Positions 6,924-41,573 of a stretch of 64,000 nucleotides of DNA are shown here, piece after piece; the stretch's first letter is position 1, and every line of letters starts with the position of its first letter. Origin of the DNA: Alkalimarinus alittae (lineage in GTDB: Bacteria; Pseudomonadota; Gammaproteobacteria; Pseudomonadales; Oleiphilaceae); NCBI RefSeq assembly GCF_026016465.1, contig NZ_CP100390.1, positions 186,001 to 250,000 of the forward strand, in the 5' to 3' direction. Both the position numbers and the translations under genes were made by a program. The notes under the pieces were generated by a model that was not told the DNA's origin, ran no database searches, and saw only the letters and a list, made by a program, of their open reading frames with translations.

Positions 6924-8243
6924 ATGAATAAGCGATCTGAATTGCATCATGTGGTGATTGTCGGGGGAGGAGCCGGAGGCTTAGAACTGGCGACTTCGCT
7001 AGGCAACAGTGTTGGGCGCAAAGAACAAGCGCGTGTAACGTTAATTGATGCGAGTTTGACTCATGTATGGAAGCCTTTATTGCATGAAGTCGCTGCAGGG
7101 TCATTGGACTCTAGTTCAAATGAAGTGAATTATCGTGTTCACGCCAAAAGGCATCATTTCGAATTCCAACTCGGGCGAATGCAAGGGCTAAACCGAGAAG
7201 AAAAGCAGGTTGTTGTAGAGCCATTATTTGATGAGTCAGGCGTTGTGGTCGTTGAATCTCGGACTATAACGTACGATACGCTCGTGATTGCTGTAGGCAG
7301 TACAGCTAATGACTTTGGTACCCCAGGTGCAGCAGAAAATTGTATCTTTTTAGATAGCCTTGAGCAGGCGCGTAAGTTTCATCGCCACCTTCTTAATAGT
7401 TATCTTAAAGCAGAATATGATGCTGAAAAGAAGCAAAAGCATTCGCTTGATATTGCCATTATAGGAGCAGGCGCTACAGGCGTTGAACTGGCGGCAGAGC
7501 TTCATCTAGCTTCACAAGAGTTACCGGTATATGGCTTGAGCCACCTTAAAGAAAAAGATGTACATATTAGCGTCATCGAAGCCGCGGATCGTATTCTTCC
7601 CGCGCTGCCAGAGCACTTATCCAGTGCGGCCACTCGCGAACTCAAGCAGCTTAATATCAATGTATTGGCAGGGCAGCGAGTGGTGAATATCTCACCCTCT
7701 GATATCGAGTTTGCGAATGGTGAGCGATTAGCTGCAACGATAAAGGTTTGGGCTGCGGGTATCAAAGCGCCTGAATTTTTAACGCGTTTAGATGGGCTAG
7801 AAACCAATCGTATAAATCAGTTGGTGGTCAGGCAAGACCTTCAAACGACTTATGACCGGAATATATTTGCCTTTGGCGATTGTGCTAGTTGCCCACAACC
7901 GGGTAAAGAGCACCCCGTACCGCCGAGGGCGCAAGCTGCGCACCAACAGGCTGCTACGTTAGTTAAGTCGATTAAGCTAAGGTTAATTAATAAGCAAGCT
8001 ATTCCCTATGTTTACCAAGACCGAGGGTCGCTTATCTCATTTAGCCGCTATTCGGCGGTAGGCAATTTGATGGGTAACCTAACCGGCAAAAACTTGATGG
8101 TTGAAGGGCGTATTGCCCGCTTGTTTTATATTTCGCTTTACCGAATGCATCAAATTGCACTGCACGGGTTCTTCCGTACTTCGTTGATTTGGTTGGGTGA
8201 TAAAATCAATAAGGCCTTACATCCTCGATTAAAACTACATTGA
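6924..8243 (+). CDS. ndh: Type II NADH:quinone oxidoreductase (NDH-2)
   Basis: A 439-aa FAD protein that oxidises NADH and reduces quinone at the inner membrane without pumping protons. It has two Rossmann motifs: GGGAGG near residue 15 for FAD and IGAGATGVELAAELH near residue 180 for NADH. The FGDCASCP segment with the following PPRAQAAHQQA is typical of NDH-2, and amphipathic/hydrophobic C-terminal stretches anchor it to the membrane. The ATG at 6924 has AGAAGG upstream; longer in-frame starts run through the leader inverted repeat and are rejected. With mqo a few kilobases downstream it forms a non-pumping set of quinone-reducing dehydrogenases. Confidence 0.93.
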   Translation: MNKRSELHHVVIVGGGAGGLELATSLGNSVGRKEQARVTLIDASLTHVWKPLLHEVAAGSLDSSSNEVNYRVHAKRHHFEFQLGRMQGLNREEKQVVVEPLFDESGVVVVESRTITYDTLVIAVGSTANDFGTPGAAENCIFLDSLEQARKFHRHLLNSYLKAEYDAEKKQKHSLDIAIIGAGATGVELAAELHLASQELPVYGLSHLKEKDVHISVIEAADRILPALPEHLSSAATRELKQLNINVLAGQRVVNISPSDIEFANGERLAATIKVWAAGIKAPEFLTRLDGLETNRINQLVVRQDLQTTYDRNIFAFGDCASCPQPGKEHPVPPRAQAAHQQAATLVKSIKLRLINKQAIPYVYQDRGSLISFSRYSAVGNLMGNLTGKNLMVEGRIARLFYISLYRMHQIALHGFFRTSLIWLGDKINKALHPRLKLH

Positions 8244-8272
8244 GGTAACTCGCAGTATTCATGCCCCTCCCT

Positions 8273-8298
8273 TGTAGGAGGGGCACTTTGCCCCGATT
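8273..8298 (+). repeat. REP-like element (TGTAGGAGC family), copy 3
   Basis: TGTAGGAGGGGCACTTTGCC followed by CCGATT, about 30 bp after the ndh stop codon. The palindrome GGGGCA/TGCCCC can form a hairpin and may serve as the ndh terminator. Confidence 0.65.
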
Positions 8299-8411
8299 TC
8301 TTTAAAATTTCTCATATACATTATTTTCAGCGACAAAATATGTCGTTTCAATGCATACACTCTTTATCGTAGACAAAAAAGAACCACCCCAACGATCATT
8401 AGGAGAGTGTT

Positions 8412-8555
8412 ATGTTTAGAGTGAATGCATTTACTGAGAAAGGCACTAAATTTCGTTTTCGTATAAAAAGCGATAGCATTTTGGATGTTAGAAAGGCGCT
8501 AGGAGAGATCTTTAAAGGGCGTGAAATGAGACTCGTATTGGTTGAGCCTCTTTAG
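8412..8555 (+). CDS. Small protein of 47 aa, unknown function
   Basis: An ATG at 8412 preceded by AGGAGAG opens a 47-codon frame ending in TAG at 8555, followed about 55 bp later by a hairpin with a T-run. The product is basic and mixed alpha/beta in character (start MFRVNAFTEKGTKFRFRI, end RLVLVEPL), with no signal peptide or membrane segment. The ribosome site, own terminator and isolation between ndh and the Tim44-domain gene argue that it is real. I do not recognise a family. Confidence 0.6.
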   Translation: MFRVNAFTEKGTKFRFRIKSDSILDVRKALGEIFKGREMRLVLVEPL

Positions 8556-8609
8556 ACAGTAGATAATAGCTAGAAGTAAGACGAGGAGCGAAGTGTGATA
8601 GATGTTAAA

Positions 8610-8645
8610 TAGGCGGCGTGTTAGCAGTACCACCGCCTACTTTTT
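8610..8645 (+). terminator. Terminator of the 47-aa gene
   Basis: Stem TAGGCGG (8610-8616) with CCGCCTA (8633-8639), followed by CTTTTTG. It lies between the small plus-strand gene and the convergent Tim44-domain gene whose stop is at 8657. Confidence 0.75.
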
Positions 8646-8656
8646 GCTAATTTAAA

Positions 8657-9538
8657 TTAGGCTTCTATACCGACAATCAACCAAGGTGCATTGTCTTGTG
8701 TTGTGTCGCGCTCAAGATGCCAAACATCGGTAATATCTTCTTCAATATTCTCAACCGTATCACGGTAACGACCACTAAATTTAATGCTTAGTTCAGCAAT
8801 ACCAAATGCTTGGTCTGCCCGTACTAATTCTGCATCCACAAACATTACTTCAGTATGCTGTTCGCCCGATAACGCTGCACGCTCTTCTTTAAGCTGGGTG
8901 AAAAGTTCTGCATTAACATACTCTTCAATCATTGCTATATTATTTTCGTTCCACGCCTGTTGAATGGTGCGATAGTGATCACGAGCACCAGATAGAAAGT
9001 TAGTCATATCGAAATCGGCAGGTAGATTGAAAGGTACAGACTCTTCATTCGCAAAGCCTGTTGGTTTTTCATCGTTGAACGAGGCGTCGTTATTGTTTGA
9101 GTTGTGACTATCGCTAGAACCGAACATATCAGCGCCTGGACTTTGGCGTGTTTGGTTGCCTGCATAGGCTGGTTGTGCCTGCGCCATTTTGGCTTGGGCC
9201 ATGCCTTTAAAGAGTCGAATGGCAATGAACGCCACTAATGCGATGAGGATAATATCCATCAACTGAATACCTTCAAACGCGCCGCCGCCTATCATTGCGG
9301 CAATAAGCCCGCCTGCGAGTAACCCGCCTAGCATACCTTTCATCATGCCGCCTTTAGCGGGAGATGTCGGTGCAGCCTGTTGCTTTGAGCCTGATGACGC
9401 AGGTGCCGATTTTTTTGAAGGAGAGGTGAAAAATGATTTTCCGAACGATTTTCCGCCGCCGAACTTTTTAGCCTCTACGTGCGAAGTGGTTAGCGTGAAT
9501 GCAAATAGAATGGTCATAATGACCCAGAATTTTTTCAT
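8657..9538 (-). CDS. Tim44-like domain membrane protein
   Basis: A 293-aa protein. A signal-like hydrophobic N-terminus ends at HVEAKKFGGGKSFG, followed by a low-complexity Ser/Pro/Gln linker, a Gly/Met-rich segment and a hydrophobic stretch (IQLMDIILIALVAFIAIRLF, about residues 91-110). After another flexible Asn/Ser-rich linker, the C-terminal ~130 residues form the Tim44-like fold (from NLPADFDMTNFLSGARDHY to the end). Bacterial members are widespread inner-membrane-associated proteins of unclear role, named for similarity to the mitochondrial import motor subunit. No operon partner is evident; the gene stands alone between a terminator and the mqo hairpin. Confidence 0.85.
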   Translation of the reverse strand: MKKFWVIMTILFAFTLTTSHVEAKKFGGGKSFGKSFFTSPSKKSAPASSGSKQQAAPTSPAKGGMMKGMLGGLLAGGLIAAMIGGGAFEGIQLMDIILIALVAFIAIRLFKGMAQAKMAQAQPAYAGNQTRQSPGADMFGSSDSHNSNNNDASFNDEKPTGFANEESVPFNLPADFDMTNFLSGARDHYRTIQQAWNENNIAMIEEYVNAELFTQLKEERAALSGEQHTEVMFVDAELVRADQAFGIAELSIKFSGRYRDTVENIEEDITDVWHLERDTTQDNAPWLIVGIEA

Positions 9539-27070: not shown

Positions 27071-28453
27071 TTAGAAACGCTTAGTTAACTGCAAAGCCAA
27101 CGCGTAAGCACTTAGCTCATAAGTACCTTTTGCGTTTGAATAACCTATTTGGCTACCATCGACACGGTAGTCATGTTCATCAATTTTCACGTCATCAATA
27201 AACAAATAACCCAGCGCGCCGTCTAATACCCAGTCGCCTTCCATCTTATACTGAGCACCTACCGTGAACCAGTTACGATCGGTTGCCGGTACACGCGCAG
27301 TACGGAACTCTTTCTGAATAGGAGACTCATCGTATGCATAACCTGCCTTAAGTGTAACGGCATTTGAGTATGCGTAAGAGGTACCTACAGAGAATGCCCA
27401 CACGTTTTCCCATTGCTCAGGTACATGGCCAATCATGCCAGCTTGGCCGTATTTAGGACCCGCTAGAGCTGACACAGGGCCTGTACCCTGACCACTTAAA
27501 ATATCAAGGTTCTCAAACTGAGACCAACGAGTCCAGGTTGCGCCCGCATAAAATGCCCAGTCAGTATTAATCTGCTGCTTTAAACTCAACGTCACACTTT
27601 CTGGCAGTGTTAATGGAACCAATGCTTTTTCTTTTAACGTTACATAGGCAATAGGGGCGGTTGGGTTGCCTGTTTTTGCGGGTACATTGGTGATAGACGC
27701 ATCACCGTTCAGTTCGATATCTACTTTAGATTTATAGTTAAATCCGATAGTAGTATCCGCTGTGGGTTGATACATCACACCGAAGTTCCAACCTACGGCG
27801 TTGTCGTCACCTGAAACGTCAAAATGACCTTCTTTAATCATGGACAAAGGAATGCTATTTGTTACAGATAATGCTGAGTAGTCCTGAAATTTAGTTAACG
27901 TGCCTTCAGCATGAATAAAATCAATCCCTAAACCCACAGACCATTGATCGTTCACTTTGTAGGCAATGGTCGGTTGAACAGCTAGCGCCTTCAGTTCAGT
28001 TTCATCTGCGAAAAAACGCCCAACGAAGTCATCGTTATAGTTGCCTGATGTACCGAAGGGCGCGAATATGCCGATGCCTGCGGCCCATTTATCATTGATT
28101 GGGGTAGACATGTAGAGGTTCGGTACTACGGCTGTTCCGACAAAGTCACCGCCCATAGAACCGTTGACTGGCTGACCAATAGTATTGGTTGCGCTGCCCT
28201 TGAAGCTGGTATCTACATTAATAAAGGCAACACCGCCGGTTACTTGAGCTTTATCTAAATGAGTCAAGCCCGCAGGGTTAAAGTACTGGATAGTTGCATT
28301 CTCTGGGTTTGCTGCAGAGCCCGCATTGGCCATACCTGATGCAGAGGCACTTTGCTCGTTTAATGCGTAACCAGAAGCCAGTGATAAAGTGGGAAGTGCG
28401 GCGAGAGATAATGCACTCGCTAACGCGGAAATTGACCTTACTCTTTGAGACAT
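27071..28453 (-). CDS. fadL: FadL-family outer-membrane long-chain fatty-acid transporter
   Basis: A 460-aa outer-membrane protein. Signal peptide ends at LSLASGYALNEQSAS, where the N-terminal hatch begins. The family NPAG signature (YFNPAGLTHL) is near residue 58, and the chain ends in Phe as expected for a 14-stranded barrel (LQLTKRF). It takes up long-chain fatty acids or other hydrophobics. The start is ATG at 28453 with AAGGTAG upstream. Together with FadE this forms the fatty-acid uptake and first oxidation step. It is divergent from the lipoprotein operon, separated by 415 bp. Confidence 0.93.
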   Translation of the reverse strand: MSQRVRSISALASALSLAALPTLSLASGYALNEQSASASGMANAGSAANPENATIQYFNPAGLTHLDKAQVTGGVAFINVDTSFKGSATNTIGQPVNGSMGGDFVGTAVVPNLYMSTPINDKWAAGIGIFAPFGTSGNYNDDFVGRFFADETELKALAVQPTIAYKVNDQWSVGLGIDFIHAEGTLTKFQDYSALSVTNSIPLSMIKEGHFDVSGDDNAVGWNFGVMYQPTADTTIGFNYKSKVDIELNGDASITNVPAKTGNPTAPIAYVTLKEKALVPLTLPESVTLSLKQQINTDWAFYAGATWTRWSQFENLDILSGQGTGPVSALAGPKYGQAGMIGHVPEQWENVWAFSVGTSYAYSNAVTLKAGYAYDESPIQKEFRTARVPATDRNWFTVGAQYKMEGDWVLDGALGYLFIDDVKIDEHDYRVDGSQIGYSNAKGTYELSAYALALQLTKRF

Positions 28454-28868: not shown

Positions 28869-30422
28869 ATGTTCAAACTCAAAGTGCTTTCTCAAGTGGT
28901 TGCTGCAACGGTTGCTTCGTCTTTTTTAATGGGGTGTGGCGGTGGTTCTAGTTCAGGTTCTGCAGCATCGACCACGACGAATGTGACAGGGAGTGCGTTT
29001 GCGTCTTATGTTTCGGGAGCGAGTGTCGTCGCAATGGATGGTACGGCTGAGATTGCAGGCCCTGTTACTACTGCGGCTAATGGTGGTTTTACATTAGCAA
29101 TACCGAATGAGCACTTAAGAAGTCAGTTGGTGTTTATTGCAACGGGTGGTTCTTATACAGATGAAGCGACGGGTGAAGAAGCTGCGTCAGAAGAGCTTTC
29201 AGTGGTTGCCGGAGCGGGGACGCTACAAGCAGGTTCAACCATACATGCCACGCCTTCATCTTCGATCATTCAGAAGTTAATAACTAAGCATGGCCTAACG
29301 AAAGAGGACGCAGAAACATTATTTGAAGCTGCGTTTGGTTATCTGCCAGATACATCCGTAGCCCCAGTTGATGCGACGAAAGAAAGTACCGCAGAAGAGG
29401 CATCAAAGTTAGCAGGGGTTAGGGCTGCTGCTTTTAGTCAGTTGCTGGCTGAGCTTGAGCTACCTAAAAACGCACACTCAGCTTTGCTAGATGCATTAGC
29501 AGAAGACTTGGCTGATGGGGATGTCGATGGGGTGAATAAAGCGGGGGCCGCTGTTCAGCTTAAAGGTGGCGATATGCGTCAAGACATGGCGGCTCAGTTT
29601 TCACTAGCGCTGCTGAACTTTGCTAAAGGAACACAGAACAAAACAGGGTTAAACCCAGGAAAAGTCGGCTTGATCAAGTTTAACCCTAAGGCTCAAAGTG
29701 ACGATTTCGTCTACGAATTATCACCCAAAGGGATGGTTACAGAAGGTAAAGTGACTTTTGATTTAACAATTAAAAGCGCTGATACAGATGGCTCTCCAGG
29801 GGAGCCTAAGAAAGATCTACAGCCTAACATGATGCCTATGATGTATATGGCTGGCGGGCATGCGCATAGTACGCCTAATTCAGGTTGTACATTAACCGAT
29901 GAGGATGGGGTGGCAGAGTGTACGGTTTACTTCCTCATGGCTTCTTCAATGGCGAATGGCAGTGTAATGGGAAACTGGGATCTTAAATTTACGGTCGACG
30001 ATGCCAATGAAGTGCATTTCTTCCCAGACGTTAAGATGGCAATGGGTGATGATACAACCAGACTTAGATTGGAAGGAGGCGCGGCTGATCTCGATAATAT
30101 TAATGGAGCGGGCCGTTCTTACTTTATCTATAAAGAATCTATTGCAGAAGTTGCAGGCAACTATACCGTTAAGTTTTTTATAGCAACTAAAGAGTCTATG
30201 ATGAGCTTTCCTGCCGTTAATAATGATGGTGCAGCCAGTGGAGGGTTAGATGCTCCGGTATCTCTCACTGTTGATGGCCAGCTTGCAGACTTTGAAGCGA
30301 ATGGCGTTTGGGCAATAACTGGTCTGAGCAAAGAAAGCCTCAGTGATTTAGAGCTAGTGTTAACGGTTAATGGTGAACCAAAGCCTGCAGGCACCTTCAA
30401 CATCACCCCAACAAGCATGTAA
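28869..30422 (+). CDS. Large outer-membrane or periplasmic lipoprotein, unknown function
   Basis: A 517-aa lipoprotein (lipobox LMGC, Cys23, followed by a GGGSSSGS spacer). The first ~90 mature residues look like a carboxypeptidase-regulatory type beta domain (GPVTTAANGGFTLAIP). A helical middle part follows (about 130-250). The C-terminal half is beta-rich and holds a Met/His-rich stretch at residues 319-334 (PNMMPMMYMAGGHAHS) followed by two Cys, and a second Met-rich segment (FLMASSMANGSVMGNW). Such Met/His clusters are typical of periplasmic copper binding, so copper handling is a reasonable guess. It is the first gene of a four-gene operon with a barrel protein and two thioredoxin-fold proteins. 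Confidence 0.75.
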   Translation: MFKLKVLSQVVAATVASSFLMGCGGGSSSGSAASTTTNVTGSAFASYVSGASVVAMDGTAEIAGPVTTAANGGFTLAIPNEHLRSQLVFIATGGSYTDEATGEEAASEELSVVAGAGTLQAGSTIHATPSSSIIQKLITKHGLTKEDAETLFEAAFGYLPDTSVAPVDATKESTAEEASKLAGVRAAAFSQLLAELELPKNAHSALLDALAEDLADGDVDGVNKAGAAVQLKGGDMRQDMAAQFSLALLNFAKGTQNKTGLNPGKVGLIKFNPKAQSDDFVYELSPKGMVTEGKVTFDLTIKSADTDGSPGEPKKDLQPNMMPMMYMAGGHAHSTPNSGCTLTDEDGVAECTVYFLMASSMANGSVMGNWDLKFTVDDANEVHFFPDVKMAMGDDTTRLRLEGGAADLDNINGAGRSYFIYKESIAEVAGNYTVKFFIATKESMMSFPAVNNDGAASGGLDAPVSLTVDGQLADFEANGVWAITGLSKESLSDLELVLTVNGEPKPAGTFNITPTSM

Positions 30423-30434
30423 ACAGGACGCCCC

Positions 30435-31415
30435 ATGAGAATTAGACGTACATGGGTCAACAACGCGCTGTCAATCAGCGCGTTGTTGTTATCCTCCTCA
30501 ACCGCTTACGCCGCCTCTTGTTGTGGTGGCGGTAATGCCACTTCACTGGTGCTCCCTAAGTTTGGCAATCAAATGATCGATGTTTCATTTGATATGGAAG
30601 ACTACAAGGGCTATTGGAATCAGGAAGGCGACTATACGAAAGACCCTGCGGGTTCAGATTTAAACCAATATCGATTGAACCTAGGCTACGCTCACCGCGT
30701 TGCCGATAACTGGCAGGCGAGCGTAACACTGCCGTATGTTTGGAATGACAATACCTATCCTGGCGTCGTATCAAAAGAAAACGGTGTTGGCGATATGAGT
30801 GCCAGTTTTTGGTATGAAACATTTGACCAAGTCACCTGTGTTTATCAGGTTAATAGCCTTGCCGATTTAAGGCCGGCTATTTACATTGGCGGTACACTCA
30901 CTCTTCCTACGGGTAAGTCGGCCTATGGTGATGACGCAACAAGTAGTTTTGATATCACCGGTCGAGGCTTATACCGGTTTGATGCGAATTTATTGATTGA
31001 AAAAACCGTGTATCCGTTTACCGTTACCTTGCAAGGTTCTTACGGTAAGTACCTTGAGCGAGATGTAAATCAGGAATACGGAACCGCCGTTGCACCTTAT
31101 AAAAAGAACCTAGGGGATCGCACTTTCGTCTCTGCCTCATTGGGTTACACCTACTTTCTTGAAGAACTCGACACATTGACCTTTACCGCAGCGTTAGCCG
31201 ATTTAAGAGAAGGCGAAGGTGAGATTGATGGTGTTTCTGACCCTCTAACTGAGTTTGAAAAACAGTCTGTCGCGTTGACCACTGCTTATGCTTCATCAGA
31301 TCTGCGTTGGGTATTTAAAGGCACATTCAGTCATGCGTTGAGACAAGACGGTAGGGGCGAGAACTTTCCAACGACTGATATTTTAACCCTAGGGGTAAGC
31401 TATGCGTTTTATTAA
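30435..31415 (+). CDS. Outer-membrane beta-barrel protein with N-terminal CC motif
   Basis: A 326-aa protein with signal peptide ending at STAYA and a mature N-terminus beginning ASCCGGGNATSLVLP. The rest alternates amphipathic beta strands (for example RLNLGYAHRVADNWQASVTL and TFVSASLGYTYF) and ends in Phe-Tyr, as for an outer-membrane barrel. The vicinal Cys pair is unusual for the periplasm and could bind a metal or be a substrate of the thioredoxins encoded next. The gene starts 12 bp after the lipoprotein stop with AGGA before the ATG, and its 3' end overlaps the start of the next gene by 14 bp. A strong hairpin lies within its first codons. Transport role unproven. Confidence 0.75.
   Translation: MRIRRTWVNNALSISALLLSSSTAYAASCCGGGNATSLVLPKFGNQMIDVSFDMEDYKGYWNQEGDYTKDPAGSDLNQYRLNLGYAHRVADNWQASVTLPYVWNDNTYPGVVSKENGVGDMSASFWYETFDQVTCVYQVNSLADLRPAIYIGGTLTLPTGKSAYGDDATSSFDITGRGLYRFDANLLIEKTVYPFTVTLQGSYGKYLERDVNQEYGTAVAPYKKNLGDRTFVSASLGYTYFLEELDTLTFTAALADLREGEGEIDGVSDPLTEFEKQSVALTTAYASSDLRWVFKGTFSHALRQDGRGENFPTTDILTLGVSYAFY
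30458..30488 (+). promoter_or_regulatory. 13-bp perfect hairpin inside the first codons of the barrel gene
   Basis: CAACAACGCGCTG (30458-30470) and CAGCGCGTTGTTG (30476-30488) are perfect complements around a 5-nt loop, covering codons 8-18 of the barrel gene. It is GC-rich enough to form in the mRNA and could attenuate transcription, protect the downstream transcript or slow early translation, altering expression relative to the preceding lipoprotein gene. Confidence 0.6.
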
Positions 31416-31941
31416 ATCATTGTGCATCGCACTGACTCTGGTTGCGATGACAATTTCAACAACGGGTTGTCTTGAAGATTTAAAATCTGAGAGTAAAGAC
31501 CTGAGAACCGATACATCAGTAGGCGGCGACGATTCAGCCCCAGCAGTAGACTTTATTGAGCTCAGCACCGAAAGCGAAACGATACAGCTAAGTTCTGAGT
31601 TAATGAATAACGATGCAGTGGTGCTTTATTACACTATGTGGTGTCCTATCTGTGACAGCCATATGAGCCATCTTCGTAGTAACGTGGTCGATCACTATCG
31701 AAATGTACGATATCTCGTTGTGGATTATGTGTCGGGCTCGGTTGCCCAGTCACGTAACTCACAAGTGTCTAATGGTTATGCGTCTTTTACGGTTTTGTCA
31801 GATAGCGATCAGTCGTTAATCGAGCAGTTTAATGCCACGATGGGTACCACGGTGGTGATTGATGACCAGAATAAAATACTGATGAACGAAGACTATAAAA
31901 ATGGTGCCCGACTAATTGAAGTACTGGAGACACTACAATGA
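31402..31941 (+). CDS. Thioredoxin-fold lipoprotein with CPIC active site
   Basis: A 179-aa protein with lipobox TTGC (Cys23), so membrane-anchored outside the cytoplasm. WCPICDSHM contains a C-x-x-C pair (Cys81, Cys84) following a beta strand (VVLYYTMW), as in thioredoxin-like proteins. The rest fits a compact thioredoxin fold with a late strand GTTVVIDDQNKIL containing the expected position near the cis-Pro, although no Pro is seen there. Starts 14 bp inside the previous gene with AGGGG upstream of the ATG, and its stop overlaps the next start (ATGA). Likely a dedicated thiol reductase or metallochaperone partner for this operon. Confidence 0.8.
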   Translation: MRFIKSLCIALTLVAMTISTTGCLEDLKSESKDLRTDTSVGGDDSAPAVDFIELSTESETIQLSSELMNNDAVVLYYTMWCPICDSHMSHLRSNVVDHYRNVRYLVVDYVSGSVAQSRNSQVSNGYASFTVLSDSDQSLIEQFNATMGTTVVIDDQNKILMNEDYKNGARLIEVLETLQ

Positions 31942-32477
31942 TAAAGATCCAAACATCTACAAAACTGCTGGTAATAGGTTTACTGGGGTTGTTCTCAACA
32001 TCGCTTTTGGCAAGCCCTGGCTATGAGGGAATGAAAGCAAAAAAACCTGAGCAGATTATACTGGCGCCTGACTTTTCACTGACAACCCTCGATGATAAAG
32101 CGATCAGCTTGTCTGATTACCAAGGCAAGGTAGTGGTATTAAACTTCTGGGCTACCTACTGCATTCCTTGTCGAATTGAGATGCCATCTTTAGAGAAATT
32201 TTCAAAGAAACATCAAAATAGTGATGTGTCAGTGGTGGCGATATCCCTTGATGACGGTAAAGAAAAAGCGATTCATAGCTTAGTGAAAAAAATGGATTTG
32301 ACCTTCCCGATTGCGTTAAAAGGGCAATCTGCAGGCCATGATTATCAAGTATCCGTGCTCCCTGTGACGTATATTATCGGTAAGCAAGGCGAGTTGTTAG
32401 CAAGAGTTGTGGGCGATAGAGACTGGGCCAGTGAAGAGGCTGATGAGTTAGTCAAAGCCGTATTAGCAGGGGAGTAA
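31938..32477 (+). CDS. TlpA-family thiol:disulfide oxidoreductase
   Basis: A 179-aa periplasmic protein with signal peptide (to about SLLA) and a redoxin/TlpA domain: FWATYCIPC with Cys75 and Cys78, an AISLDD segment, and the cis-Pro loop in VLPVTYIIGKQGEL. TlpA/ResA-like proteins reduce apo-cytochrome c heme-binding thiols or the Cu sites of oxidases, taking electrons from DsbD/CcdA. Last gene of the operon, coupled to the CPIC lipoprotein by ATGA overlap. The co-occurrence of two thioredoxin-fold proteins with a Met/His-rich lipoprotein and a CC-containing barrel suggests metal-thiol chemistry. Confidence 0.85.
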   Translation: MIKIQTSTKLLVIGLLGLFSTSLLASPGYEGMKAKKPEQIILAPDFSLTTLDDKAISLSDYQGKVVVLNFWATYCIPCRIEMPSLEKFSKKHQNSDVSVVAISLDDGKEKAIHSLVKKMDLTFPIALKGQSAGHDYQVSVLPVTYIIGKQGELLARVVGDRDWASEEADELVKAVLAGE

Positions 32478-32490
32478 CGCCCCTCGCTTT
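32468..32490 (+). terminator. Weak terminator at the end of the envelope operon
   Basis: AGGGG (32468-32472) and CCCCT (32480-32484) form a 5-bp stem across the stop codon, followed by CGCTTTTTG. Short but correctly positioned. Confidence 0.4.
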
Positions 32491-32696
32491 TTGTTCCTTC
32501 CGCCTGATTTATTCTATCTAGTTCACAGAACTACGTATTCTTTCGTCTCTTTCTTCGCTACTTGACCTGAGCTAAGCTAATTAGTGCTAGTTCGTGGCTT
32601 TATCCTAGATTACTATCTATTTATTAATAGATTTAGATTCTTTAGTAAAAATAAATATAATTTATTGAGATTTTAAAAGAGAACCTCGGAGGGAGT

Positions 32697-34808
32697 ATGA
32701 AGACGGTCGTTAGTATTAGTCTAGGGAAGGATGCGCTGGATTATGATTTTAAAACAGAGTTTTTGGGGCAACAATTTAGGGTTATTAGAATAGGTACCAA
32801 TAACGATGTTAAGCGGGCTGAGAAACTACTTAGAGAGTGGCAGACAAAAGCTAACGTTATTGGGTTAGGGCGTGTGCGAGAGCACTATAGTGTCGGTACC
32901 CGCAATTTCGTTCAAAAAAACACTCGAAACCTAGAGCATTGTGTTAGCCAAATACCGGTTACAACAGGGGCAACTTTGCGAGGTATTTTGCATGAGTGGG
33001 CCATTCGACATACTCAAATAGAGCAAGGTAATTTCTTTAATAACTCTAGGGTGCTATTTTTAAACGGTGTCGCTAACTATAAAGCGGCTGCAGTATTAAG
33101 TGAATACACCGAGAACCTCCAATTTGCCGACTCAGTGCTTCAGTTAGGCGTGCCGAAATTCATTAACTCTTTGGCACATTTAGAGTTGTTTGCAGCGGGT
33201 ACTCATCCACTTAATAAATGGTCATCTCCTCATGTGCTTTCACCTAAAGTCGTCGCGCTTAGAGAGTGGAATCGTTTTATTGTTAAAAAGGCGGCTCAGA
33301 AAGCCGATGTGATTGCGGCTGCTTATGAAGAAATAGAAGACTTTTCACTAGAAGAGTTAGGAGGTAAGACACTTTTAACCTCAACTATTTCTCAAGAGAG
33401 ACTTGATAGGTTGAAGTTAAAAGGTGTGAATATGGTGGTGGATATGTGTCCACAGCTATTTGACACCACAGTCGGAATTAACGTGATTGAAGCGATGATT
33501 CTAGCGGCGCTTGATAAGAAACCGGGTGAGCTAACGCAGGATGACTATCTTGAAATACTCACCTCACTCGATACCGAACCCCGTATTTTATATCCAGCAG
33601 GCTATAAGCGCCTTAACCGTTTCGCATTTGTGATTCATCCGTTATCACAGCAGTATCTCAGTCGAGCAAAACCGCTAGATCTCGTTGCTAAATTCTCGCC
33701 TCCAACGGTTATGGATACCGTTGAAAAAGTGATGGCGTATGCACCTCCATTTGTTTATTCCCATGTGTCAGGTATTAAATCACCCACTGGCGATGAAGCT
33801 GAGGGTTGGTTGATTACTGTCGGTGGTACACCAAAGGAGATTATGGCGCATAGCCCTGAGTTTACTTATCGTCGTCTTTTAGCTGCAGCGCGTATGGCCA
33901 AACGCTTGGGCGCTCAAATTATGGGGCTTGGCGCGTTTACTAAAGTAGTAGGGGATGCCGGTGTAACGGTTGCGAAAAGAGCACCTTTACCGATTACTAC
34001 CGGCAATAGCTACAGTGCTTCGGGTGCATTATGGGCGGCTAATGAAGCCACTAGACGCTTAGGACTTGTTAGAATTGATAAGAAAGGCAAGGTGCAGGGT
34101 AAGGCTATGGTTGTTGGTGCAACAGGGGCTATTGGTTCTGTTTGTGCCCGACTATTGGCAAAAGCCGTGATCGAGATTCACATAGTCGCGCCTGAAACTG
34201 CTAAACTGCTTGCGCTAAAAGAGACCATACTTAAAGAAACACCCGATGCCAAAATTCATCTGGCGACATCTGCAGATGCAGATAAAGGTTTGTCCGAGAT
34301 GGATATGATCGTAACGGCAACGTCGGGGGCAGGTAAGAAAATCCTCGATATCATGAAAGTTAAGCCAGGCTGTGTCATTACGGATGTCGCAAGACCGCTC
34401 GATATCCCTGCGAGCGATGTGGCCAAACGCCCGGATGTTTTAGTGATCGAGTCAGGCGAGATCGAAATGCCTGGCGATGTGAAGATGAAAGATATCGGCC
34501 TTCCTCCTAACGTAGCCTTTGCCTGCCTTGCAGAAACCATAGTGCTTACGCTAGAAGGACAGTTTGAGAACTTCACTGTAGGCCGTAATATCGAGTGGGA
34601 AAAGGTGAAGGAGATATACAAGCTAGGCCTTAAACACGGTATGAAGCTCGCAGCTATTTCAGGTGTTAATGGCGTTTATTCCGATGAGGATATTCAGCGT
34701 GTTAAAGAACTTGCGATAAAGAACCGTGCTGCACTGAAAAAGAAAGAAGATAATAAAGTTGTTAAGATTAAAAAATTAAGAGCGGTTAAAAACAAAGCGG
34801 CTATTTAA
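32697..34808 (+). CDS. Two-domain protein with C-terminal acyl-ACP-reductase-like (AAR) half
   Basis: A 703-aa cytoplasmic protein. From about residue 335 to 680 it follows the layout of cyanobacterial long-chain acyl-ACP reductase: an N-terminal RFAFVIHPLS segment, LGAFTKVVGD, TTGNSYSA, the Rossmann motif GATGAIG (474-480), and AFACLAE with Cys610 at the position of the catalytic Cys that forms the acyl-enzyme, followed by FTVGRN. AAR reduces fatty acyl-thioesters to aldehydes with NADPH. The ~300-residue N-terminal part (with GRVREHY and LFLNGVANYKAAAVL) is not found in cyanobacterial AAR and I do not recognise it. The last ~30 residues are Lys-rich. GGAGG precedes the ATG. Desaturase genes follow. 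Substrate inferred from the family. Confidence 0.78.
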   Translation: MKTVVSISLGKDALDYDFKTEFLGQQFRVIRIGTNNDVKRAEKLLREWQTKANVIGLGRVREHYSVGTRNFVQKNTRNLEHCVSQIPVTTGATLRGILHEWAIRHTQIEQGNFFNNSRVLFLNGVANYKAAAVLSEYTENLQFADSVLQLGVPKFINSLAHLELFAAGTHPLNKWSSPHVLSPKVVALREWNRFIVKKAAQKADVIAAAYEEIEDFSLEELGGKTLLTSTISQERLDRLKLKGVNMVVDMCPQLFDTTVGINVIEAMILAALDKKPGELTQDDYLEILTSLDTEPRILYPAGYKRLNRFAFVIHPLSQQYLSRAKPLDLVAKFSPPTVMDTVEKVMAYAPPFVYSHVSGIKSPTGDEAEGWLITVGGTPKEIMAHSPEFTYRRLLAAARMAKRLGAQIMGLGAFTKVVGDAGVTVAKRAPLPITTGNSYSASGALWAANEATRRLGLVRIDKKGKVQGKAMVVGATGAIGSVCARLLAKAVIEIHIVAPETAKLLALKETILKETPDAKIHLATSADADKGLSEMDMIVTATSGAGKKILDIMKVKPGCVITDVARPLDIPASDVAKRPDVLVIESGEIEMPGDVKMKDIGLPPNVAFACLAETIVLTLEGQFENFTVGRNIEWEKVKEIYKLGLKHGMKLAAISGVNGVYSDEDIQRVKELAIKNRAALKKKEDNKVVKIKKLRAVKNKAAI

Positions 34809-34850: not shown

Positions 34851-34876
34851 GGCGACCCGAAACGGTCGCCTTTTTT
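34851..34876 (+). terminator. Rho-independent terminator after the AAR-like gene
   Basis: GGCGACC (34851-34857), loop CGAAAC, GGTCGCC (34864-34870), then TTTTTT. A classical intrinsic terminator, so the reductase-like gene is its own transcription unit, separate from the ferredoxin reductase gene. Confidence 0.92.
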
Positions 34877-35073: not shown

Positions 35074-36231
35074 ATGAGTATCAATACCAACACACTTGAT
35101 ATAAGACACACAATCTGGTCATGGATAGCACGAAACCTAACGAATAATGTGAGTTTCAAGGCCTACTTTGAACCGTTGATTCAGTTGTTTTTTCCTCAGT
35201 GGCGCGCTGATCGATTTCGTAGTAGTGTAATCGATGTGCGCCGAGAGTCTGATGATATGTATTCGTTGGTCATTAAGCCCAATAAACAATGGAAAGGGTT
35301 TAGGGCAGGGCAATATATTGAGCTTACCGTCGAAAAAGAAGGTGCATGGGTGAGTCGCTTTTTTAGTATCTCTAGCAGCCCTCGTTACTTTAACGATAGC
35401 GGCCTGATTGAAATCAGTATTCGTATTCAAGAAAACGGCCAGATCACACCATGGTTACCGCAAGCGTTAAAGGCTGGGGGGGTGGTTAATTTATCTCAGG
35501 CTGAAGGCGAGTTTTGTCTTGCAGATTCAACAACGATATCGGGTGTAACCGCTTCAACACCCACAACAAAGCCCATTCTAATGATCGCAGGCGGCAGTGG
35601 TATTACACCCTTTAGATCAATGTTGCAGCAAATCTCGCTCAATGGCTTAGCCGTTTCGAAACCTGTCAGCCTAATGTATTACGCACGCAGTCCTGAACAC
35701 TTTCTGTTCAAAGAAGCGCTTAATACTTATCAGCAACAAGTGCCCAACTTGACGGTAAATTTTATTGATACTAATGAACTAGGCTTTTTCAGCGATGCTC
35801 ACTTGCTTAAATACTGCGACGATTTTGCTATACGGGATATTTATATCTGCGGCCCAAGCCCGATGATTATGCATGCTCGTAAGGTACTGCAAAATCAAAA
35901 CGTAAACCAAGAACAAATCCACTATGAATTCTTCGGCCCAGAACCCGTATCGCTCGAAGGTTCAGGTCAGGCATCAAGCGTATTATTTCAGCAATCGGGT
36001 AAGCAGGTTACCACCAACAAAGACGAGCCTAAAACCTTGCTAACGTTAGCAGAAGACGCGCAATTAAAACCGCTGTCGGGATGCCGTATCGGTGTATGTC
36101 ATCAATGCATTTGCCAGAAGAAAAGTGGTGTGGTGTACAACAGCAAAACCAAAACCTATAGCGATACCGGCCAAGAAGAGATTCAGCTATGTGTGAGTGT
36201 ACCGGTAGCGGATGTGGTTTTGGCCCTATAG
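35074..36231 (+). CDS. 2Fe-2S ferredoxin:NAD(P)H reductase, desaturase partner
   Basis: A 385-aa protein with an FNR-type FAD module (RFFSISSSPRY), an NAD(P) module (IAGGSGITPFRSML and ICGPSPMIM) and a C-terminal plant-type 2Fe-2S domain with ligands Cys337, Cys342, Cys345 and Cys373. It resembles the oxidoreductases paired with acyl-CoA desaturases (Mycobacterium tuberculosis Rv3230c with DesA3; PA4889 with DesB in Pseudomonas aeruginosa), which feed NADPH electrons to the di-iron desaturase. The desaturase gene follows 152 bp downstream on the same strand. The N-terminal ~40 residues are poorly conserved and the start has no obvious ribosome site. Confidence 0.9.
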   Translation: MSINTNTLDIRHTIWSWIARNLTNNVSFKAYFEPLIQLFFPQWRADRFRSSVIDVRRESDDMYSLVIKPNKQWKGFRAGQYIELTVEKEGAWVSRFFSISSSPRYFNDSGLIEISIRIQENGQITPWLPQALKAGGVVNLSQAEGEFCLADSTTISGVTASTPTTKPILMIAGGSGITPFRSMLQQISLNGLAVSKPVSLMYYARSPEHFLFKEALNTYQQQVPNLTVNFIDTNELGFFSDAHLLKYCDDFAIRDIYICGPSPMIMHARKVLQNQNVNQEQIHYEFFGPEPVSLEGSGQASSVLFQQSGKQVTTNKDEPKTLLTLAEDAQLKPLSGCRIGVCHQCICQKKSGVVYNSKTKTYSDTGQEEIQLCVSVPVADVVLAL

Positions 36232-36383: not shown

Positions 36384-37487
36384 ATGAGTGCAGCCAGTAA
36401 TAATGCCAGACCTGATAGCGCAACGCTTGAGCTGTTCGCGCAGGACCTAGACCAGATTCGATCTAATACTATGGCCAAGGTAGGCCAGAAAGACGCCAAC
36501 TATATTCGCAATGTTATTCGTGTGCAGCGTGTTAGCGAAATCGGCGGTCGAGTCGCATTAGTATTAGGCTTTATCAGTCCTGTCTGGTGGGTGGTTGGTG
36601 TTTTGTTATTAGCGTTTGCTAAAATCCTAGACAACATGGAAATCGGTCATAATGTCATGCATGGCCAATACGACTGGATGAATGACCCCAATATCAATGG
36701 ACGTAATTTCGAATGGGATCACGCCGCCGACTCAGACTCTTGGAGACGCTACCACAATCACGAGCATCACACTTACACTAACATTATCGGAAAAGATCGA
36801 GACTTTGGGTATGGGCTATTAAGATTAAGTGATGATACTTCTTGGAGGCCTAAAAACCGCTGGCAGATTCTGACCTATTTAAACTTAAGCGCCATGTTTG
36901 AGTTAGGCGTGGCCTATCATGAAGTCGCGGGCGAACGCATCTTTATGGGTAAACGCCGCAAAACCAGCAGTTTACCGATAACCCGAAAAGAGTTGCGAAA
37001 TGCTTTTTTCAGCAAAGCAGGGCGTCAGTTTTTTAAAGATTATGTTTTTTTCCCGTTGCTTTGTTTTCCGATGTTTTTACCGGTACTCGCCGGTAACTTC
37101 TTAGCGAATATTTTAAGAAACCTGTGGACTAGCACTGTGATATTTTGTGGTCACTTTACTGAAGAGGTTCATACATTCAGTATTGAAGACTGTGAAAACG
37201 AAACCCAAGGTGAATGGTACTACCGCCAGATTTTGGGTTCATCAAACTTTGAAGGCCGTCGTTGGTTGCACATCTTAAGTGGCCACTTGAGCTGTCAGAT
37301 AGAGCATCATCTATTTCCTGATGTGCCGGCTTATCATTATGTTGAAATGGGCAAGCAGGTTCAGGCGGTGTGTAAGAAATATGATATTCCATACAATACA
37401 GGGTCTTTTGGCAAACAGTATTTGACGGTGGTTAAGCGAGTGCTGAAGTACAGCTTTCCGTCTAAGATTGAGGCGGCCAGTGTTTAA
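36384..37487 (+). CDS. Acyl-CoA fatty-acid desaturase (DesA3/DesB type)
   Basis: A 367-aa integral-membrane di-iron desaturase. The three His boxes are HNVMH (89-93), HNHEHH (124-129) and QIEHH (305-309), the last followed by LFPDVPAYHY. Hydrophobic segments lie around residues 57-80 and 215-245. The third box with Gln and the overall pattern match DesA3-type Delta-9 acyl-CoA desaturases, so it probably introduces a cis double bond into long saturated acyl chains and adjusts membrane fluidity. AAGGA precedes the ATG. It follows its likely reductase partner. No DesT-like regulator is nearby. Confidence 0.9.
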   Translation: MSAASNNARPDSATLELFAQDLDQIRSNTMAKVGQKDANYIRNVIRVQRVSEIGGRVALVLGFISPVWWVVGVLLLAFAKILDNMEIGHNVMHGQYDWMNDPNINGRNFEWDHAADSDSWRRYHNHEHHTYTNIIGKDRDFGYGLLRLSDDTSWRPKNRWQILTYLNLSAMFELGVAYHEVAGERIFMGKRRKTSSLPITRKELRNAFFSKAGRQFFKDYVFFPLLCFPMFLPVLAGNFLANILRNLWTSTVIFCGHFTEEVHTFSIEDCENETQGEWYYRQILGSSNFEGRRWLHILSGHLSCQIEHHLFPDVPAYHYVEMGKQVQAVCKKYDIPYNTGSFGKQYLTVVKRVLKYSFPSKIEAASV

Positions 37488-38510: not shown

Positions 38511-39050
38511 CTACTGGTTCGCTTTAACTGCCTCTCTTTGCTGGTGGCCATCGCGTAAATGGTCAATACTTTCCCCTGTTAACGAGTTGCCCGCTATGGC
38601 ATAGGCTCGGCCAAAATCTTTGACATATCGGCCACCTATGGGGGTTAGCTTGAACAAATTAAAGTCTGTCATGCCTCTGAGGTTATGAATCCTATCTCCC
38701 TGTTTTTGGTACAACGCCTCAATGGCTAGATCGTACTCAGCCCCTGCGTCTAACGGTATATGCTCAGCGACCACCTGATAGTTAACGCGAATACGGGCAA
38801 ATATGGTTTGTGATTCAGACTCGTCTTCAACAATCAGTACGGCTGCTTTCGGGTTATTCTTCAAATTAACGCCATGTACGGCAATATCACTAAGCAATAC
38901 ATAGATACAATTTTCACCCGTTGCATAAGGTGCGTAGGATGCATACGGGTGACCATTTTCATCGATTGTTGATAAATGAAGCGTGCGGCGCTTTGCTAAA
39001 AATGCTTCTAATTCTGTGGCTAGCCTAGCTTCCATTACTTTGTTTTTCAT
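38511..39050 (-). CDS. hutZ: Heme-utilisation protein HutZ (FMN-binding split-barrel)
   Basis: A 179-aa cytoplasmic protein of the pyridoxamine-phosphate-oxidase-like fold, as in Vibrio HutZ and Helicobacter/Campylobacter HugZ/ChuZ heme-degrading enzymes. Visible are RTLHLSTIDENGHPYASYAP (first barrel strands), DESESQTIFARIRVNYQ, and the C-terminal GGRYVKDFGRAYAI segment conserved in HutZ. It receives heme from the upstream-encoded HutX and opens the ring to release iron. AGGAGA precedes the ATG. Only 10 bp separate it from hutX. HutZ proteins use a His near this C-terminal region as heme axial ligand; I cannot assign it with certainty here. Confidence 0.92.
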   Translation of the reverse strand: MKNKVMEARLATELEAFLAKRRTLHLSTIDENGHPYASYAPYATGENCIYVLLSDIAVHGVNLKNNPKAAVLIVEDESESQTIFARIRVNYQVVAEHIPLDAGAEYDLAIEALYQKQGDRIHNLRGMTDFNLFKLTPIGGRYVKDFGRAYAIAGNSLTGESIDHLRDGHQQREAVKANQ

Positions 39051-39060
39051 TGGGTTTCTC

Positions 39061-39468
39061 CTAATCTGTTATTTCGGTAAAGGCCGTGTACTGCTGCTTA
39101 TAAGCTAGGTACTGTTCTTTTTGTGAGGGATGTAACTGGCCTTCTGCATCGCGTCCTAAAAATATTTTGAAAATGCATTCACCTTCACTATCGTGAAAGA
39201 CAAAGGCATGGCTTTCTTGTCCTCGATGCAATTTGCTTTGAAACTTTATTACGTTAACTTTATCTAGGTTCAAATGGCCTTCGAACCCACTTTCACCTTT
39301 TAAATTGTAAAAACCATGGGCTAGCTCGCCTTGAGGGAATACGCCCTTAAATTCAAACACTGACCCGCCATGTAAAATGATGGTGGTGGTGTTTTGCCAT
39401 TGGCTTATGGTTTCTAGTAGTTGCTGGGCTTTATCGCCAGGCATACTGGCTTCTGCATTGTCATTCAT
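39061..39468 (-). CDS. hutX: Cytosolic heme-carrier HutX
   Basis: A 135-aa protein matching HutX/HuvX: the segment TTTIILHGGSVFEFKGVFPQ near the N-terminus and KIFLGRDAEGQLHPSQ near the C-terminus. HutX passes cytosolic heme to HutZ. The first in-frame codon used by longer models is TTG at 39489; the ATG at 39466-39468 with AAGG upstream is preferred. It follows the heme receptor gene by about 47 bp and precedes hutZ, forming a receptor-hutX-hutZ operon. Confidence 0.9.
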   Translation of the reverse strand: MNDNAEASMPGDKAQQLLETISQWQNTTTIILHGGSVFEFKGVFPQGELAHGFYNLKGESGFEGHLNLDKVNVIKFQSKLHRGQESHAFVFHDSEGECIFKIFLGRDAEGQLHPSQKEQYLAYKQQYTAFTEITD

Positions 39469-39515
39469 TCGTTGTTTGCCTTGTTCCAATGTAGATATGT
39501 TGTTTAATTTGACGA

Positions 39516-41573
39516 TTAAAAACTATATTGTGCGGCTACACGAACAGAGCGGCCTGCCTCGTAAACTGAGGTCCACGCATTGCGATAATTTTGATCAAAG
39601 GCATTCGCCACGGTGAAGTCGATCTTAAGCCCTTCAAGTGCCTGACTAGAGGGCTCCCATGCGGCATAAAAATCAGCTGTTGTATAACCGTTATAAGGGC
39701 CTTGGCTGTCGTCGCTAGGCGTATGCTTTTGATCGCTAGCCTTGAGTACTTTAACACCTACATTAGTATCAATCGACCAAACGCCATAGTCGAGGGTAGC
39801 CACCCATTTGTCTGCAGGAATACCACTTAGATACTCGTTAGTGTCTTCATCTTTACCGCGGGTTTGCCCGTAAGTAAGCGAGGCGGTTAATGCGTCTATT
39901 TGGTATGCCGCGCCGAATTCAAAGCCTTTTAAACGAGCGTTTGCGACGTTTTCAGAGGTTGAGGTGCCAGCACAACCTGCACCCATGCCCGGTGCAAAGC
40001 AGTAACCCGGCATGGTGCTGGGTACGGTCACGCTTAGTTCGATAAAGTCTTTCACTTTGTTCTCGAATACACTGGCAACAAGGTTGAGTTTGTCTTTACC
40101 GATTAGGTTATTGAAGTTGAACTCGCCTTTTAATTCAATATTCTTTGACGTTTCTGGGCTAAGGTCGGGGTTGGCGATAAATACGTTAGTTGGCCCACCT
40201 GGGAAGAACGCAAAGTGTGTACCGTCCATATAGAGTTCATAGACATCAGGGGCGCGGAAGGCTTCATCATATCGAACCGATAGTGCCGCCCAATCAATCG
40301 CCTGCCATCGGATAGCCGCTGCCGGCGATAGTGCAGACTCATCACTGCTCTCAAACCCTTGCGCTTTAGAGTCAAAGCTATCGTAGCGAACGCCGGCTTC
40401 AAGGGTTACATTTTCGACTATCGCGTAATCACCATATAGAAAGGCACCGAGGGTAGTGGTCGATGCGTTAGCAGGTGGGTTGGGACGGCCATCTCCGCTA
40501 GCAGGGCGTGCGGTGTCAAGGTTGTCTTCGTAGCCGTCAATACCGCCCAGCAGGTTAAAACCACCGAAGGTTGATTGATTGGTCACCGAGAATCCATTGG
40601 TTTCGATCTCGCTAATGTCTTCGCTGCCAAACAGGTTGTCTTCTTCAATACGGGTGTTATTTTGGTATAGCTTAGTATCAATATTGATAGCATCGCTTTC
40701 GGGGTTAAATTGGTAGCTAAGTGCGATGTTCTCATCGGTTGTTCGACGGTCTATCAGTTTATCAGGGTCATTGAGCTGCTGATCTGAACTGCCTACCGCA
40801 GGAGGGTGGCCATCGTTATTAGCGTTTCTGTAGTTAATTCCAATGGTATTACTTTCGGTTATTTTCCAGCCTACTTTAGCGATGCCCGTCGCGTTTTGGG
40901 TTTCGCTGCCATAGAGTGTATCGCCATTACCTTGCTCCATTTTACCGCTGTCTAGGTAGCTTGCCCCTAATAGCCAGCTGATGGTGTCATGCTCACCCGC
41001 GATCGCTGAGGTGCCGGTCCATTGATTACCGTTATCATTAAAGCTGGTTCTGACAAAACCACCGAATGTCTCGTCTTTATCTAGCAGGTCGCTGGCCGAT
41101 AGGGTTTGTTGTGAAACCACACCGCCTACTGCACCCGAGCCCCATAGAGAGCTTACAGGCCCTTTAACGACATCAATTTGGCTGACCAAAGAAGGGTCTA
41201 AAAAGTAAGAGGGTCGATGGTTGAAGTTGGTGTTAACTCGTGTTCCATCTATGACTTGCAGAATTTTATTGCCTTCTAATCCGCGAATATTAATGGATTG
41301 ATTACCTGGAATAGGGCCGCCAGTGACCGTGACATTCGGCTCAAATTTTAGCGCCTCAGCAACAGATGCAGGCTGAGCTTGATCTAATTGATTTCTATCG
41401 ACACTGTCGATACTGCGCGTTTCTTTTTGTGCGGTTTGTTCAATCCTTGATGCTGAGACGACCACCTTATCAAACACGGTCACCGAAGACTCTGTCGTGT
41501 CTGCATGGGCAGAAGGCAGCACGACCAAACTACAGCCTCCTGTAATGGCCAGTAAAGGAAGAACACTTTTCAT
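39516..41573 (-). CDS. hutA: TonB-dependent heme/hemoprotein receptor (HutA/PhuR-like)
   Basis: A 685-aa outer-membrane receptor. After the signal peptide (ending PSAHA) comes the TonB box region (SVTVFDKVVVSASR), the plug domain with NINIRG-like NQSINIRGLEGNKIL and VVKGPVSSLWGSGAVGGVV, then a 22-strand barrel ending in Tyr-Ser-Phe. The heme-receptor hallmark is complete: FRAP (EAFRAPDVYELY), a His in GTHFAFF, and NPDL (IANPDLSPETS). GGAG lies six bases before the ATG. It is divergent from tonB-exbBD-hutBCD across a Fur box. The gene name follows the hut locus; PhuR or HmuR would be equally fair. Confidence 0.93.
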   Translation of the reverse strand: MKSVLPLLAITGGCSLVVLPSAHADTTESSVTVFDKVVVSASRIEQTAQKETRSIDSVDRNQLDQAQPASVAEALKFEPNVTVTGGPIPGNQSINIRGLEGNKILQVIDGTRVNTNFNHRPSYFLDPSLVSQIDVVKGPVSSLWGSGAVGGVVSQQTLSASDLLDKDETFGGFVRTSFNDNGNQWTGTSAIAGEHDTISWLLGASYLDSGKMEQGNGDTLYGSETQNATGIAKVGWKITESNTIGINYRNANNDGHPPAVGSSDQQLNDPDKLIDRRTTDENIALSYQFNPESDAINIDTKLYQNNTRIEEDNLFGSEDISEIETNGFSVTNQSTFGGFNLLGGIDGYEDNLDTARPASGDGRPNPPANASTTTLGAFLYGDYAIVENVTLEAGVRYDSFDSKAQGFESSDESALSPAAAIRWQAIDWAALSVRYDEAFRAPDVYELYMDGTHFAFFPGGPTNVFIANPDLSPETSKNIELKGEFNFNNLIGKDKLNLVASVFENKVKDFIELSVTVPSTMPGYCFAPGMGAGCAGTSTSENVANARLKGFEFGAAYQIDALTASLTYGQTRGKDEDTNEYLSGIPADKWVATLDYGVWSIDTNVGVKVLKASDQKHTPSDDSQGPYNGYTTADFYAAWEPSSQALEGLKIDFTVANAFDQNYRNAWTSVYEAGRSVRVAAQYSF

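Follow-up and report, generated by a model that had tools for sequence, protein, structure and literature searches.

Acyl-thioester reductases have been described in several structural settings. The cyanobacterial acyl-ACP reductase (AAR; profile TIGR04058, PDB entries 6jzq, 6jzu, 6jzy and 6jzz) is a protein of 341 residues with one fold, and its dinucleotide loop, GATGDIG, lies at residues 162-168 (PMC7089970). PigE/TamH (NF053554; 4ppm) contains the same AAR-type thioester reductase with an aligned cysteine (PMC8341465), and TamH is a reductase-aminotransferase fusion like PigE (PMC9594044). An AAR-like fold is also found in the Carmabin 'TAD' domain (9e4s, 9e4u, 9e4x, 9e50 and 9e56), which belongs to a protein named 'amino acid adenylation domain protein' in the PDB; no paper on this domain was found in the literature search. 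Marinobacter Maqu_2220 and Maqu_2507 reduce acyl-CoA and feed wax esters, and they are of the short-chain dehydrogenase/reductase type. PMC10351704 refers to Maqu_2507 as a fatty acyl-CoA reductase. Here, we analyzed a 64,000-nucleotide stretch of the Alkalimarinus alittae genome (NCBI RefSeq GCF_026016465.1, contig NZ_CP100390.1, positions 186,001 to 250,000 of the forward strand), referred to as the window, in which an open reading frame (ORF) at 32697..34808 (+) encodes a 703-residue protein. Whereas AAR and PigE, as compared here, have one reductase fold each, the window protein has two copies of the predicted AAR fold in tandem, one of them probably dead. Its fusion partner is the second AAR fold, in contrast to the class-III aminotransferase of PigE/TamH. 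Unlike the Carmabin 'TAD' domain, it is not part of an adenylation protein, and it shares a proposed role, but presumably not a family, with the Marinobacter enzymes. No publication on this protein family was found in the open-literature search.

The reading that we favor, and consider fairly probable as a whole, is that a live C-terminal reductase and a dead N-terminal pseudo-subunit were fused once, and that the resulting aldehyde goes mostly to wax esters. The identity of the N-terminal half and the split gene pairs described below are the new points. A spurious ORF was ruled out by the relatives in other genomes and by sequence conservation.

The complete protein gave no Pfam or NCBIfam match over the cut-off. 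The C domain (residues 304-680; 33606..34736, +) was assigned to the AAR/PigE-type thioester reductases by profile, PDB-sequence and structure matches. It matched TIGR04058 with an E-value of 1.3e-22 and 80.6 bits, below the equivalog cut-off of 449.7, and gave a better match to NF053554 (E-value 8.7e-55, 186.4 bits, cut-off 850), limited to profile positions 1-370 of 837, the N-terminal part of PigE that holds its reductase. The PDB chains with the best sequence matches were 4ppm of PigE (5e-27) and the AAR chains 6jzq, 6jzu and 6jzz (1.5e-14 to 7.4e-13), and in the structure prediction AAR was the best relative of the C half. The motifs GATGAIG (residues 474-480; 34116..34136, +), FAC (608-610) and GRN (629-631; 34581..34589, +) occur once each in the protein. 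The first aligns with GATGDIG of AAR; its G474 and G477 are present in 102 of 102 C sequences and G480 in 98. Cys610 (34524..34526, +), also invariant in the 102 sequences, was aligned with residue 294 of 6jzq and residue 296 of 4ppm, counted along the sequence alignments; these are the published catalytic Cys of AAR and its PigE counterpart (PMC7089970 and PMC8341465). An earlier note, made from the DNA sequence alone, had described the C half as AAR-like on the basis of the same three motifs; this observation was confirmed, and the interpretation attached to it was supported in part, as discussed below. The analysis supports the assignment of the C half, from its sequence, as an acyl-thioester reductase with catalytic Cys and dinucleotide loop. 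It is extremely unlikely that the protein is instead a dehydrogenase of the shikimate/quinate or amino-acid type, as two weak Pfam matches below the cut-off (Shikimate_DH and Semialdhyde_dh) might hint. By analogy, its probable reaction is the reduction of activated fatty acids to fatty aldehydes. Cys610 would take over the acyl chain of acyl-CoA or acyl-ACP, and the resulting thioester would be reduced to the aldehyde by NAD(P)H in the GATGAIG loop, since AAR and PigE work in this way.

The N domain (residues 1-303; 32697..33605, +) was much harder to place. Searches of Pfam and NCBIfam with E-values up to 1 gave no credible family but scattered single-member matches (best 0.0065), and the PDB sequence search gave no significant match (best 0.094). 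When the N half was folded alone, the predicted structure matched AAR across almost the full length, and the Carmabin 'TAD' domain was the best structural relative after AAR for both halves. Comparison of the two halves by hhalign gave no signal with narrow profiles and a weak, colinear one with deeper profiles, run along with permuted, reversed and unrelated controls. An unrelated N domain was ruled out by the predicted fold, and the statement of the earlier note that this part has no counterpart in cyanobacterial AAR did not hold. In the profile alignment, Asn262 (33480..33482, +) stands in the column of the catalytic Cys; the 102 sequences have N in 62, A in 21, D in 6, S in 4, E in 3, G in 3, V in 2, P in 1 and Cys in none. 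The dinucleotide loop GxxGxxG was not found in the N half of this alignment, which holds invariant residues of its own, including D145 and K224. The N half is therefore probably, as judged from the model, a second AAR fold without catalytic activity. Most likely it acts as a bound pseudo-subunit: an inactive paralogue would be packed on the reductase, where it may stabilize or regulate it, or shape the acyl tunnel.

The occurrence of the two halves as separate genes was surveyed in 246 genomes from the phylum of the Nocardioides record G351, an actinobacterial phylum. The N profile matched 29 of them, that is, the fused protein of G351 and 28 proteins in frames of 294-344 residues, from genomes of 1.0-2.8 Mb. 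The free N proteins presumably go under the name 'quinate 5-dehydrogenase', a term that did not turn up in the literature search. The C profile (E-value up to 1e-10) also matched 29 genomes, 25 of them common to the N-bearing set (Fisher 5e-26, not corrected for kinship); C without N was seen in G452 (strong match), G590 (partial), G455 (weak) and G486 (in a 1023-residue frame). We fetched the split loci of 20 of the 28 genomes with free N. All contained N (21 copies, including one tandem pair) and 17 contained C, the two genes being directly adjacent in nine and separated by two ORFs in eight. One locus (L171) ends at a contig edge, and its genome carries C on another contig. In these small genomes, the same two parts are encoded by separate neighboring genes. 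The main fact against a pseudo-subunit role is that in four genomes (G392, G417, G537 and G538) N was found and C was not; the fetched loci of two of them (L173 of G417 and L168 of G537) come from small genomes with the N protein and no C gene found. Together with the invariant residues peculiar to N, they favor an N half with a function of its own, e.g., as a carrier that binds acyl chains or aldehydes and is simply joined to the reductase. We regard this as rather unlikely given the predicted AAR fold over almost the full length, the presence of C in most N-bearing genomes and its closeness in the fetched loci. In one locus (L166, G376), two free N genes (6980-7900 and 7924-8928) stand in tandem beside a free C gene.

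A class-III aminotransferase gene lies between the N and C genes in eight of the 20 split loci, and a Polyketide_cyc protein in seven; both counts come from ORF clusters, with a Pfam check on L155 only. Together with PigE being the closest named family by score, this could mean that the aldehyde is aminated as in PigE/TamH, yielding a fatty-amine or pyrrole-type product. Near the fused gene, however, such an aminotransferase was seen in just one of 81 sources (L078, 1.8 kb away), and genes for iron-containing alcohol dehydrogenase (Fe-ADH), NAD_binding_4 proteins or wax ester synthase/diacylglycerol acyltransferase (WS/DGAT) are common there, so that we find amination unlikely.

To place the fused form, 84,980 species genomes were scanned with patterns drawn from both halves, which favors two-half matches. 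The best 80 of 117 confirmed loci were kept, and all 80 span both halves. According to their record titles, they come from Gamma- and Betaproteobacteria, Anaeromyxobacter, an Acidobacteriota metagenome-assembled genome, SAR324 and Actinobacteria; the genera include Marinobacter, Halomonas-type bacteria, Rhodoferax, Rubrivivax and Mycobacterium. Among 58 near relatives, with the window's genome included, 27 gave a match, in 22 cases to the two-half form (G016 being cut at a contig end) and in five to the C half only, in frames of 757-945 residues. The N profile matched 3 of 299 genomes sampled from the window's phylum, its own included, and 6 of 193 from that of Anaeromyxobacter, one of these hits being a fragment of N where a contig ends; the profile searches scored the best few candidates per genome, and these counts may be low. 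In the plasmid search the N half had no match, and the C half matched 16 records, all under 60% identity, of which 13 carry the annotation class-III aminotransferase. The identity of 32 chosen relatives to the window protein is 71-83% in the C half and 34-75% in the N half. Within the fused form, tree distances average 1.67 for N and 0.54 for C, so the N half changes faster than the C half. A C tree of 47 tips was calculated with IQ-TREE and rooted on three PigE-like sequences, chosen by frame length and match range and not by family scan. The fused forms made one clade (27 tips, ultrafast bootstrap 88) and the standalone C proteins another (17 tips, 93). With FastTree, the supports were 0.75 (fused) and 0.83 (standalone) for all C sequences, and 0.47 and 1.0, respectively, for N with midpoint root. 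A single fusion event is the simplest reading of these trees.

The fate of the aldehyde was addressed through neighboring genes, counted with tblastn seeds in the window and the 80 loci. Several loci have short flanks, and the seeds were picked from GC-rich loci, where antisense ORFs mix into the clusters. Fe-ADH genes are found near 19 fused genes, 17 of them divergent at a distance of 47-153 bp. NAD_binding_4 genes are found near 14, in 13 cases, all actinobacterial by record title, on the same strand and 21-76 bp upstream. Seven have a WS/DGAT gene nearby, downstream at a distance of 2 bp in L067 and 54 bp in L083, and 1.2-7.3 kb away in the rest. At least one of the three is present within 153 bp at 31 of 80 loci, and a separate Fe-ADH or NAD_binding_4 gene flanks 30 of 80 homologues. 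In the fused-form bacteria the aldehyde would thus mostly be reduced on to fatty alcohol for wax esters, and the same destination may apply to A. alittae, whose genome contains four WS/DGAT matches and a full Fe-ADH sharing 78% identity with the Fe-ADH encoded near the homologue in L008. One option of the earlier note, that the N half could reduce the aldehyde, so that one bifunctional chain would form alcohol, appears quite unlikely. The two AAR-like folds, the conserved D145 and K224, and the absence of all three neighbor genes within 153 bp at the 20 Marinobacter loci, as at the window, would agree with it; the missing GxxGxxG loop and Cys, the separate reductase genes beside the homologues and the full Fe-ADH in the window's genome argue against it. 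Alkane synthesis by the AAR-ADO pathway was ruled out, as ADO (PF11266) gave no match in the window's genome, which also sets it apart from the AAR systems. Among the 58 genomes ADO was over the cut-off in none and below it in two; the control search gave matches in 2 of 14 (Caulobacter vibrioides and Synechococcus elongatus), one of them over the cut-off. The co-occurrence of WS/DGAT among relatives was not used as support, being explained by kinship. A C-terminal Fe-ADH remnant (G000:C1:853998-854579; L208:6008-6589) has a WS/DGAT gene at a distance of about 2 kb, and this pair at 854 kb was dropped as a pathway link, the Fe-ADH being a fragment.

A second two-half copy with 56% identity is encoded in the same genome (G000:C1:2620842-2622884; L175:6840-8897). 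An AMP-binding enzyme is encoded 60 bp upstream of it; such a neighbor was seen at three of eight lower-identity copies fetched, all three in the window's genus. The two paralogues differ in the predicted cofactor-choice loop at the end of strand beta-2. In the window protein this loop contains P499-E500 and K503 (34191..34205, +), where AAR has R189-N190 and R193, and the paralogue has R-N in place of P-E. Of the three AAR arginines that contact the NADPH phosphate, one is identical (R314, kept as R630 of the GRN segment), and R189 and R193 are replaced by P499 and K503. Among 80 fused-form sequences, E500 is present in 79 and P499 in 68; the standalone C proteins have R at the 499 position in 16 of 17. 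An acid at the end of strand beta-2 generally favors NADH, and for this reason we predict from the loop sequence that the window protein uses NADH and its R-N paralogue NADPH. A wider proposal is possible, and we advance it tentatively: a two-subunit reductase of a live and a dead AAR fold, split in small actinobacterial genomes (with the aminotransferase between in about half) and fused once, would provide an unrecognized aldehyde step for wax esters or fatty alcohols across Gamma- and Betaproteobacteria, Anaeromyxobacter-type bacteria and Actinobacteria, with the dead half as a required activator and with paralogues that differ in cofactor (E500, NADH; R-N, NADPH). If true, a family without its own Pfam or NCBIfam model makes fatty aldehyde by a reductase carrying its dead twin. 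Fatty-aldehyde synthesis would then include a pseudoenzyme subunit that can be tested, and bacterial wax-ester formation would gain a new candidate step; the split genes would be a natural choice for reconstitution.

In the window, the gene starts with ATG, preceded by the Shine-Dalgarno-like GGAGGG at 32688-32693. A promoter-like site, TTTAGA-18-TATAAT (32632..32661, +), lies upstream and is weak evidence, with 13 such sites against 11.5 expected from shuffles. A terminator-like hairpin with a T tract (34851..34870, +; seven pairs, six G-C) follows the gene directly, and a weaker one precedes it (32468-32484); six terminator-like sites were found in the region against 5.3 expected, so neither kind of site is commoner than in shuffles. 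Judging by where the sites lie and by how strong the first hairpin is, the gene probably forms a transcription unit of its own. This hairpin separates it from the genes of an FAD/NAD/2Fe-2S reductase (35074..36231, +) and a fatty acid desaturase (36384..37487, +), assigned by family and Pfam matches, respectively. The earlier note had taken this neighborhood as support for a lipid-reducing role. The reductase and desaturase genes are real, but the hairpin intervenes, the FadL-type outer membrane protein (27071..28453, −) is encoded on the opposite strand at a distance of 4.2 kb, and FadE is about 19 kb away. The order of the genes for the 703-residue protein, the FAD/NAD/2Fe-2S reductase and the desaturase is kept in both same-genus loci examined (L185 and L186) and in part in L005, and the eight loci of other genera that were compared do not show it; the desaturase with its reductase was found in L005 only among the 80 fused-gene loci. 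This context was therefore rejected as functional proof, and the neighbors at other loci and the AMP-binding enzyme by the second copy give better support for the function. Upstream of the gene, at 28869-32477, the window contains four genes (517, 326, 179 and 179 residues), two without Pfam match and two thioredoxin-like, which occur in the same order in L185 and L186. Further downstream, at 38511-41573, genes for a HutZ-like heme protein and a TonB-dependent heme/hemoglobin receptor were observed.
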